Assembly: GCA_023663945.1 (NCBI GenBank)
Contig: JAMPGL010000003.1
Coordinates: forward strand, 62,001 to 126,000
Origin: Lachnospiraceae bacterium
Lineage (GTDB): Bacteria > Bacillota > Clostridia > Lachnospirales > Lachnospiraceae
Direction of reading: 5' to 3'
DNA: 64,000 nt
Every line of letters begins with the position of its first letter. Within the stretch, counting starts at the first letter, position 1. Positions 9,285-10,433 of the stretch are shown here, in pieces. The position numbers and the translations under genes are program-made. The notes beneath the pieces were generated by a model. The model saw only the letters and a program-made list of their open reading frames with translations. It had not been told where the DNA came from and did not search any database.

Positions 9285-9313
9285 AGTATACCACAAAATG
9301 GGAGTGATTGTAA
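9285..9313 (-). promoter_or_regulatory. rfbA: Promoter for the rfbA operon
   Basis: On the minus strand TTACAA (9308-9313) and TATACT (9285-9290) are separated by 17 bp. The -35 overlaps the 5-prime half of the terminator hairpin of the preceding ORF6N gene. Confidence 0.55.
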
Positions 9314-9322
9314 ATCACTCCC
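9300..9322 (-). terminator. Hairpin after the ORF6N gene
   Basis: GGGAGTGATT and AATCACTCCC arms with a 3-base loop are followed on the minus strand by ATTTTGT. It is placed 48 bp after the ORF6N stop and just before the rfbA promoter. Confidence 0.65.
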
Positions 9323-9370
9323 AAATTATTGTCACAGAAAAGGTAATCCTATAATAGTTTATCGTATGTA

Positions 9371-10333
9371 TTAACTATTCGCTTCCTCCATTTCAATTTC
9401 TAACCGTTGAAGTATATCTGTAATGATTCCAATATCTTCAATCAAATTGATTCCGAAACATTTTTTACCTGCATCTTTAATGGAGGCACCGATATGATAT
9501 GCTGCAGTCTCATCAATAATAAGAAATCTATCATGAAATACCCCTGCGTAGTTTACTTTCAAAACAGGGTACTGTGCATTAAAATTATCTATATCCTGAG
9601 CTGCAAGTCTTGTTCTTCTTACTGTATATATCGTTACATTCACCCCTTCTCGCTTTTTTGCGAGGATATTCAATGTTCCTACATCTACATAATTGTCTAT
9701 CAGGACTATCGACTTTTCAGCCCTTTCAATGAGGCTTACCAGCAAACTAAATGCATCATATATTTGACCGTCAAAAAATATATGCTGATTTGCTTCTTCA
9801 TGTTCTGAAATATATGCAAAAATTTTATCAAATTTTTCATTTGATTCCTTTTGATATTGCAGTTGTTTTAATTCCAAGCTGCTTAATCGCTCAAACATCA
9901 ATGCATTTTCCGCCAGAAATTTTCTCATCTTAACAAAGGTATTCATGATATTTAAGCTTACCTGTATTGCTTCATCGCTTCGCAATACCGCCGAAAGCAT
10001 TGCTATTCCTTGTTCAGTAAATACATATGGTAAATATCTCCTGCCGCCTTTAGACGAAGCATTTTCTGGCTCTATATTTGAGGTCGCAAATTGCGACCTC
10101 AATGCTATATGCTCTTCCTCCGTTAACTGAAAACAAAAATTTTTAGGAAATCTCTTTAGATTTCTTTTAACGCTCTCATTTAGACGCTTTGTTTCAACAT
10201 TATAAAGCATGGCCAAATCACTATCTAACATTACTTGTTCGCCACGGACAATATGAATCAAATTTTCGATTTTTTCTTCCGTATCATTTATCACAGCCGG
10301 CACATTCATACTTTCTTCAGCCAAACCAATCAT
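9371..10333 (-). CDS. ORF6N-domain DNA-binding protein with PLD-like tail
   Basis: The 320-residue product opens its conserved part with IENLIHIVRGEQVMLDSDLAMLYNVETKRLNESVKRN and RFPKNFCFQLTEEE, the ORF6N domain found in phage and host regulators, followed by LRSQFATSN (78-86) and GGRRYLPYVFTEQGIAML. A helical region (130-185) leads to a C-terminal domain with FHDRFLIIDETAAYHIGAS, a HxR/D variant of the phospholipase-D/HKD motif; nuclease or lipase activity is uncertain because lysine is replaced. The first ATG has AGGAG directly against it, so the second ATG at 10309 is a possible start. A consensus promoter and a palindromic operator precede it, and the same palindrome is inside the gene. 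It is a single-gene unit, possibly of phage origin. Confidence 0.8.
   Translation of the reverse strand: MIGLAEESMNVPAVINDTEEKIENLIHIVRGEQVMLDSDLAMLYNVETKRLNESVKRNLKRFPKNFCFQLTEEEHIALRSQFATSNIEPENASSKGGRRYLPYVFTEQGIAMLSAVLRSDEAIQVSLNIMNTFVKMRKFLAENALMFERLSSLELKQLQYQKESNEKFDKIFAYISEHEEANQHIFFDGQIYDAFSLLVSLIERAEKSIVLIDNYVDVGTLNILAKKREGVNVTIYTVRRTRLAAQDIDNFNAQYPVLKVNYAGVFHDRFLIIDETAAYHIGASIKDAGKKCFGINLIEDIGIITDILQRLEIEMEEANS
10078..10102. promoter_or_regulatory. Intragenic copy of the ORF6N palindrome
   Basis: A 25-bp perfect palindrome with one central base, arms TTGAGGTCGCAA and TTGCGACCTCAA, is identical to the promoter copy at 10347-10371; flanking identity extends to about 28 bp. On the coding strand it reads as LRSQFATS of the ORF6N protein. 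It could be a second operator that loops to the first. Confidence 0.7.
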
Positions 10334-10346
10334 CTCCTGTACTTTT

Positions 10347-10371
10347 TTGAGGTCGCAAATTGCGACCTCAA
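10347..10371. promoter_or_regulatory. Palindromic operator at the ORF6N transcription start
   Basis: The same 25-bp palindrome begins at the expected +1 position, 7 bases from the -10 box, and ends 13 bases before the first ATG. This position would block initiation if occupied, so self-repression by the ORF6N protein is the simplest reading. Confidence 0.75.
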
Positions 10372-10377
10372 TGAAAT

Positions 10378-10405
10378 ATTATATCAGCACATTACTTTAT
10401 GTCAA
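10378..10405 (-). promoter_or_regulatory. Consensus sigma-A promoter of the ORF6N gene
   Basis: TTGACA (10400-10405) and TATAAT (10378-10383) on the minus strand are exact consensus hexamers with 16 bp between. An additional TTGACC/GGTCAA inverted repeat lies just upstream at 10412-10425. Confidence 0.85.
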
Positions 10406-10433
10406 TCGGTTTTGACCTCGGTCAACAAATAAT

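Follow-up and report, generated by a model that had tools for sequence, protein, structure and literature searches.

Operators located inside coding sequences are exemplified by lac O2 inside lacZ and by gal OI, and the Rickettsia palindromic elements are palindromic DNA read in frame as part of proteins. Separately, intragenic operators are known, and so are coding palindromes. Like autoregulated repressors and genes with intragenic operators, the ORF6N gene found in the 64,000-nt stretch of Lachnospiraceae DNA analyzed here (the window) has one site near its promoter and one in its coding region. It differs from intragenic operators in that the ORF6N site lies in codons of the binding domain itself, recurs throughout the sampled phyla, is maintained by amino acid recoding and tracks the presumed recognition helix. 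The window protein also resembles phage antirepressors, since it matches eight transcription-regulation PHROGs, seven of which are anti-repressors (PHROG 4792 is among the phage antirepressors); to our knowledge, such proteins have not been described as encoding their own binding site.

PARCELs are in-frame palindromic DNAs forming tandem 25-residue repeats that are thought to be mobilized (PMC2996958). The short site of ORF6N genes is usually single, is found at the homologous place and varies in concert with a DNA-binding helix. Nematomorpha mitochondrial genes contain perfect inverted repeats (up to 284 bp) in functional coding sequence; unlike the ORF6N sites, these are much longer, mitochondrial and, in the abstract of PMC6649704, have no stated link to a DNA-binding product. 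The PADLOC entries PDC-S05, PDC-S22, PDC-S13 and PDC-S02 match the same families as those considered below, and these matches are silent on coding palindromes. A literature search of partial coverage (few subscription journals) yielded no account of a DNA-binding protein that targets a site among the codons of its own domain, with site and reading helix coevolving (a term search of PMC9252829 gave none either), and none of coding palindromes in the ORF6N, RhuM, KilA-N, Bro-N or YhcG families. Given the partial coverage, this negative result is weak support for absence from print.

An ORF6N gene with two identical palindromes

The product of the gene belongs to the ORF6N family (Pfam PF10543; E 2.4e-33, 114.7 bits against a gathering cut-off of 27.8). 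A 25-bp palindrome, TTGAGGTCGCAA-N-TTGCGACCTCAA, occurs twice at this locus (Table 1), both copies being exact and their starts 269 bp apart. No third copy with up to three mismatches was found in the window (0 in 100 dinucleotide shuffles), and none in the 3.74-Mb assembly of the same genome (94% complete). The coding copy is translated in frame into residues 78–85, and its center is the first base of the codon following Gln81. The other copy begins 6 nt past the end of a sequence matching the promoter consensus at 12 of 12 positions and ends 13 nt short of the ATG; these distances place it at approximately +1 to +25 of the predicted transcript. All of this bears out the first-pass annotation, which had described two identical palindromes with this spacing, one at the predicted +1 of a consensus promoter and the other encoding LRSQFATS of an ORF6N protein.

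Table 1. Positions of the features of the ORF6N locus within the window.
Feature	Position	Strand	Basis or remark
ORF6N protein gene, 320 aa	9371–10333	-	matches PADLOC candidate defence singleton PDC-S05
ORF6N domain, residues 26–116; taken as winged-helix DNA-binding domain	9986–10258	-	fold judged by eye from the sequence
Presumed recognition helix, residues 48–58 (TKRLNESVKRN)	10160–10192	-	Lys49, Arg50, Glu53 and Arg57 coupled to bases of the palindrome
Coding palindrome, 12+1+12 bp, LRSQFATS; proposed self-recognition site	10078–10102	.	sequence and pairing across the family
Promoter copy of the palindrome, predicted +1 to +25	10347–10371	.	sequence and promoter match
Promoter-like TTGACA-N16-TATAAT, with TG before the second hexamer	10378–10405	-	12/12 consensus match only; putative promoter
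C-terminal part, residues 166–291, HDRFLIID motif; possible distant phospholipase-D-like domain	9461–9838	-	weak matches

Three further elements were noticed in this region: a short inverted repeat lying immediately 5′ of the -35 box (TTGACC-TC-GGTCAA; 10412–10425), a strong inverted repeat, GGGAGTGATT/AATCACTCCC, 3′ of the ORF6N stop codon (9290–9332) and unrelated in sequence to the palindrome, and an intragenic promoter-like sequence, TAGATA-N17-TATAAT (10/12 matches; 10199–10227), upstream of the coding palindrome.

PADLOC profile PDLC04869 (PDC-S05) matches residues 15–313 of the protein (E 2.9e-127); PDC-S05 is a candidate defence label only, with a predicted anti-phage role. A PDB search found no solved structural relative of the ORF6N domain. 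The C-terminal part matches the NCBIfam model VPA1262_N_dom with an E value of 1e-7, but with 31.1 bits where the cut-off is 80, and PDB entry 1byr at E 0.064, ranked below a glycosyltransferase (E 0.029). The phospholipase-D motif is HxKx4D; HDRFLIID (HxRx4D) has R in place of its K. Judged from sequence, this part is at best weakly like phospholipase-D nucleases. It also resembles the C-terminal region of a RhuM-like protein in another locus (L044).

The palindrome is conserved across the ORF6N family

The best-scoring Pfam matches from the taxonomic family of the window genome and the phyla of two other genomes gave 130 ORF6N loci, selected by Pfam match alone; 128 contained a usable gene and two were dropped. 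In these 128 genes the segment corresponding to LRSQxATS shows a mean of 10.70 Watson-Crick pairs out of 12 between the arms, compared to 5.07 in synonymous shuffles. The palindrome is perfect in 47 genes and has at least 11 pairs in 88, with arms of up to 19 bp (locus L253). When whole ORFs were searched for palindromes with at least 10 of 11 pairs, these were present in 112/128 ORF6N genes versus 11/384 codon-shuffled versions, while genes of HTH_3 regulators, used as a control, gave 0/30 (shuffled versions, 4/180). An additional sample, drawn from the phylum to which a fourth genome belongs, had such palindromes within the domain in 21 of 30 ORF6N loci.

The first-pass annotation had suggested an operator embedded in a conserved coding motif, which agrees with this pairing, and had held that the match would be coincidence if homologs kept the peptide with synonymous codons that break the palindrome and lacked a promoter copy. 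As to peptide and palindrome the reverse was found: homologs retain the palindrome while their peptide changes. Both arms change together, amino acids included, as in the pairs Ser-Ala (TCG/GCG), Ser-Val (TCA/GTG), Ser-Gly (TCC/GGG), Cys-Gly (TGC/GGC) and Phe-Gly (TTC/GGA), and in some genes the palindrome uses another reading frame, encoding, for example, VTNCD or VANCD. The sequence comparison indicates that the conserved item in ORF6N genes is the DNA palindrome and not the peptide.

Mismatches at positions d2–d13 were tallied in 123 genes (five of the 128, with fewer than 8/12 pairs, being left out). G-T types (GT/TG) numbered 21 and A-C types (AC/CA) 27; the absence of a G-U excess argues against selection on mRNA structure. 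The center varies freely, with d1 paired in 74/123 genes. Four tandem palindromes, not all perfect and approximately 42 bp apart, were seen in one ORF6N coding sequence, where they split the Pfam match (L034:2680–2850).

Palindrome bases covary with residues of the presumed recognition helix

The bases of the palindrome were compared with the columns of the protein alignment by corrected mutual information. Of 278 genes, 23 were dropped (fewer than 8/11 pairs at the aligned codon, or unalignable there, which includes genes with a shifted frame), leaving 255 with a palindrome; this set includes loci retrieved with a pattern that fixes d3, d5, d6 and d7 and leaves d4 free. Positions of the ORF6N domain are converted to full-length numbering of the window protein by adding 19 (30, 31, 34, 38 and 81 correspond to 49, 50, 53, 57 and 100). 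Outside the palindrome peptide, the columns most strongly coupled to core bases were positions 34 (z 10.8), 31 (8.9), 81 (6.0) and 30 (5.4), the next reaching 2.5. The z value of position 38 was only 2.0, probably because this residue seldom varies. Judged by eye, positions 30, 31, 34 and 38 share one face of the presumed recognition helix (TKRLNEAVKRN).

The correspondences in the 255 genes were as follows: at d3, Arg38 with C (223/223) and Asn38 with A (22/22); at d4, Gln34 with A (108/117), Glu34 with G (74/77), Arg34 with C (37/39) and Lys34 with C (13/13); at d5, Lys34 with T (13/13); at d7, Lys30 with G (175/180); and at d8, Tyr81 with G (126/132). Asn38 together with A at d3 was also seen in L313, whose palindrome is weaker. 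A link between d13 and position 76 may reflect a local peptide motif (SSW).

The same 255 genes served both to learn this code and to describe it first, and genes from viruses and genes with a shifted frame served as outside tests. Within the set, the d4 base was predicted, after exclusion of relatives with at least 55% identity, with an accuracy of 0.819 versus 0.433 for the commonest base (254 genes). Among 26 viral genes (one of 27 was dropped), d4 was predicted correctly in all 26, compared to 16 for the commonest base, and d7 in 23, compared to 12. With four near-duplicates and the gene already dropped removed from the 27, the 22 distinct viral genes gave 22 versus 13 for d4 and 19 versus 10 for d7, and the values were 19 versus 11 and 15 versus 10, respectively, when training relatives with at least 55% identity were excluded. 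For d3, d5, d8 and d10 there was little gain over the commonest base in the viral tests.

The shifted-frame test comprised 11 genes absent from the training set (13 off-frame rows less two truncated genes, L150 and L234); two of them are 98% identical, and the rest share no more than 88% identity with any member of the group. A at d4 accompanied Gln34 in 8/8 and G accompanied Glu34 in 3/3, and at d7 two genes with Arg30 have A while nine with Lys30 have G. Since these genes encode a different peptide and d4 nevertheless fits in 11/11, the link is to the DNA. The specificity of the site thus fits the presumed recognition helix, as seen by covariation only. Three tests support the proposed binding specificity, namely the exclusion of relatives, the viral genes and the genes with a shifted frame.

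Copies in the flanks of ORF6N genes

Among palindromes with at least 10 of 11 pairs in the 128 best-scoring loci, 106 are at the coding site, 40 lie upstream of the gene, 20 lie downstream of it and 9 are at other places within it, compared to a shuffle expectation of 4.2 in all; some of those in the flanks are ordinary hairpins of other sequence. Flanking copies of the ORF6N type concentrate just 5′ of the start codon or shortly 3′ of the stop codon. A match of at least 15/19 to the gene's own coding site was present upstream of 21/115 ORF6N genes (other genes' flanks, 35/343) and downstream of 10/115 (17/342). The first-pass annotation had called for a comparison of both positions across ORF6N genes; the coding site is family-wide, and the upstream copy was found in 21 of 115 genes only. 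The exact promoter copy of the window is therefore a minority arrangement, and a promoter copy as a general rule is ruled out. Flanking copies at the 15/19 level were absent from the RhuM (20), Bro-N (17), YhcG (21) and KilA-N (16) genes tested.

The cores of 43 flanking sites, a few unrelated hairpins included, resembled the coding core of their own gene (10.42 of 14 positions) more than those of other genes (8.89; 0/2000 permutations), while the outer arms matched the own coding copy no better than permuted ones (192/2000). After a core filter, 35 sites remained for comparison with the code; several of these are identical copies in related genes. They fit their own protein better than group-shuffled ones at the helix positions (0.721 versus 0.585; 0/1000) and at the outer positions (0.671 versus 0.541; 0/1000), although d5 (161/1000), d7 (302/1000) and d10 (587/1000), each considered by itself, showed no significant fit. 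Upstream and coding copies are spaced by 254–371 bp without helical phasing (20 spacings in 18 genes), which lends no support to the earlier suggestion of looping between the two sites, in its helically phased form.

At up to two mismatches, 43 genomes contain 1–6 copies of the ORF6N type each (two in the window genome). The palindrome pattern gave 124 matches in 119 genome loci, and 23 of these matches lie neither in an ORF6N domain nor within 600 bp upstream; six of these are downstream of an ORF6N gene and the rest include solitary copies. Of 39 viral matches, 33 lie neither in the domain nor within 600 bp upstream. In 16 of the 39 viral loci (e.g. L152, L153, L156 and L161), none with an ORF6N hit, the match is a different palindrome, TTGAGGTCTCAA-N-TTGAGACCTCAA; our guess is that this repeat is possibly a phage terminator. 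Co-resident ORF6N paralogs gave no sign of orthogonality, 11 of 13 pairs differing compared to approximately 92% expected for random pairs.

Arrays of palindromes occur downstream in three loci (L068, L125 and L235). In the first, six palindromes with the ORF6N core form a regular array 3′ of the ORF6N gene (L068:1180–1600); their outer arms differ between copies and most are symmetric. In three Clostridia-type genomes (L058, L087 and L117) a palindrome is located close to the 3′ end of a gene resembling asparagine synthase (asnB, named by eye), and only one of these loci adjoins an ORF6N gene. Occupied and empty sites are a possible interpretation of these asnB-side loci.

Palindromes in other families and in E. 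coli dinD

RhuM and Bro-N genes, chosen as negative controls, proved in many cases to carry coding palindromes of their own at a constant place, and PF05635 and HTH_3 were therefore used as controls instead. ORFs with at least 10/11 pairs numbered 20/27 in RhuM (shuffled, 7/162), 17/28 in Bro-N (6/168), 21/29 in YhcG/DUF1016 (8/174) and 16/27 in KilA-N (1/162), compared to 1/28 in PF05635 (1/168). The palindrome cores differ between these families, and the amino acids covary with them. Mismatches in RhuM, YhcG and KilA-N were of the G-U type in 11 cases and of the A-C type in 15.

In RhuM (24 genes) the strongest coupling to the palindrome is that of columns 88 and 91, both of them in the HTH (z 6.8 each). 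In KilA-N (21 genes) the top two columns are also in the HTH (z 6.0 and 5.5), with the rest reaching 5.1, so that a helix link is only suggestive; in YhcG (22 genes) the most coupled columns are outside the HTH. PADLOC PDC-S profiles matched the scanned representatives of ORF6N (three, the window protein and two others), RhuM (one), KilA-N (two), Bro-N/DinD (three) and YhcG (one), and did not match one PF05635 control protein. The corresponding labels are PDC-S05 (RhuM/ORF6N), PDC-S22 (KilA-N), PDC-S13 (DinD/Bro-N) and PDC-S02 (YhcG).

The dinD gene of E. coli K-12 (PDC-S13) has 13/14 pairs at the corresponding place, and the BL21-type allele has 10/14. Two allele classes were distinguished among six intact E. 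coli genes (L471, L532, L533 and L535–L537). The four BL21-type alleles differ from K-12 at 82–83 positions in the first 210 nt and at 28–37 in the other 615 nt; the divergent 5′ end of approximately 210 nt comprises the DNA-binding region and the palindrome. A search of 5426 genomes for dinD matched 4629, of which 1878 aligned over 80% of the query.

Discussion

Some of these results can be accounted for by template switching, some by hairpins and some by mobile repeats, but none of the three explains the helix-base code. An old inverted repeat, devoid of function and kept perfect by polymerase template switching (one arm copied onto the other), would account for arms that change together and for symmetric mismatches; template switching is reported to homogenize the arms of inverted repeats in yeast coding DNA (PMC8604942). 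It predicts, however, neither a code between helix residues and bases nor survival in another frame, and neither a constant position in the domain nor rarity in the controls (HTH_3 and PF05635), and we regard it as quite unlikely. We give the same low credence to a REP- or RPE-like mobile repeat disseminated by ORF6N genes or together with them. The copies 5′ and 3′ of genes, the arrays, the four tandem copies in one coding sequence and the matches away from the domain and the 600 bp upstream of it, solitary ones included, are what such a repeat would leave, and mobile spread may explain the origin of the flanking copies, arrays and solitary copies. Yet there are just 1–6 copies per genome, by which a high-copy repeat of the REP/RAYT or RPE type is ruled out, the flanking cores fit the adjacent protein, and the coding copy occupies a fixed homologous place.

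A hairpin of RNA or single-stranded DNA, acting for instance in mRNA control, would be consistent with the perfect arms of 12–19 bp in 47/128 genes, the free center and the upstream copies that often lie just 5′ of a start codon, but it leaves the recognition-helix code unexplained and seems still less probable than the two preceding explanations. The lack of G-U tolerance in ORF6N as well as in RhuM, YhcG and KilA-N rules out an RNA hairpin as the main cause; the mismatch test speaks against RNA only, and a DNA hairpin is compatible with it. The covariation might also arise from residue contacts inside the protein, with palindromy as a by-product, since the bases at d4 and d8 also set V/A/G at residue 83 and R/K at residue 79, and these amino acids could be in contact with residues 53 and 100. 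This is very improbable: shifted-frame genes encode other amino acids and keep the d4 code, non-coding flanking copies obey the code on average, and the d4 base of the left arm falls at a synonymous position of a serine codon.

The computations show the palindromes themselves, the covariation in them and the correspondence of helix residues to bases. We conclude that the ORF6N protein probably recognizes a site inside its own gene, as the first reading of the locus had supposed, and the covariation of helix residues with bases points the same way. Given the second copy at the +1 of a consensus promoter, autorepression appears to be its likeliest role, a combined reading in which we have reasonable confidence. 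From these data we infer a fold, dimerization, physical binding, repression and a reason for the coding placement, as follows. The protein would be DNA-binding, probably as a winged-helix dimer, with a binding site of approximately 25 bp within the encoding gene, approximately 60 nt 3′ of the recognition-helix codons. Lys49, Arg50, Glu53 and Arg57 of the window protein match d3–d7 of each arm, and Tyr100, C-terminal to the palindrome peptide, covaries with d8; as specificity drifts, both arms undergo recoding, amino acids too. A dimer at the promoter copy may block the start of transcription, and one at the coding copy may block elongation. A site in the coding sequence would travel with the mobile gene whatever promoter adjoins it, so that control would stay attached.

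More tentatively, and with somewhat less than even confidence, a broad class of mobile genes that are candidates for phage defence (ORF6N, RhuM, KilA-N, DinD/Bro-N and perhaps YhcG) may be self-addressed, carrying the target of their own product in codons 3′ of the DNA-reading helix. Target and reader may change or be swapped as one module, as suggested by the two E. coli dinD allele classes, and the arrangement may serve self-recognition between gene copies, with a code readable from genome sequence alone. Such self-recognition would amount to portable autorepression, or to exclusion of elements with the same specificity.

If this is true, many poorly understood mobile genes disclose their own DNA targets and, because reader and target word reside together in every such gene, the recognition code could be learned from sequence and specificity predicted ahead of experiments. 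There would then be a stretch of protein-coding sequence constrained over deep time mainly by DNA recognition, which would explain amino acid covariation otherwise taken for structural contact. The PDC-S defence candidates, dinD of E. coli K-12 included, would gain a testable mechanism.
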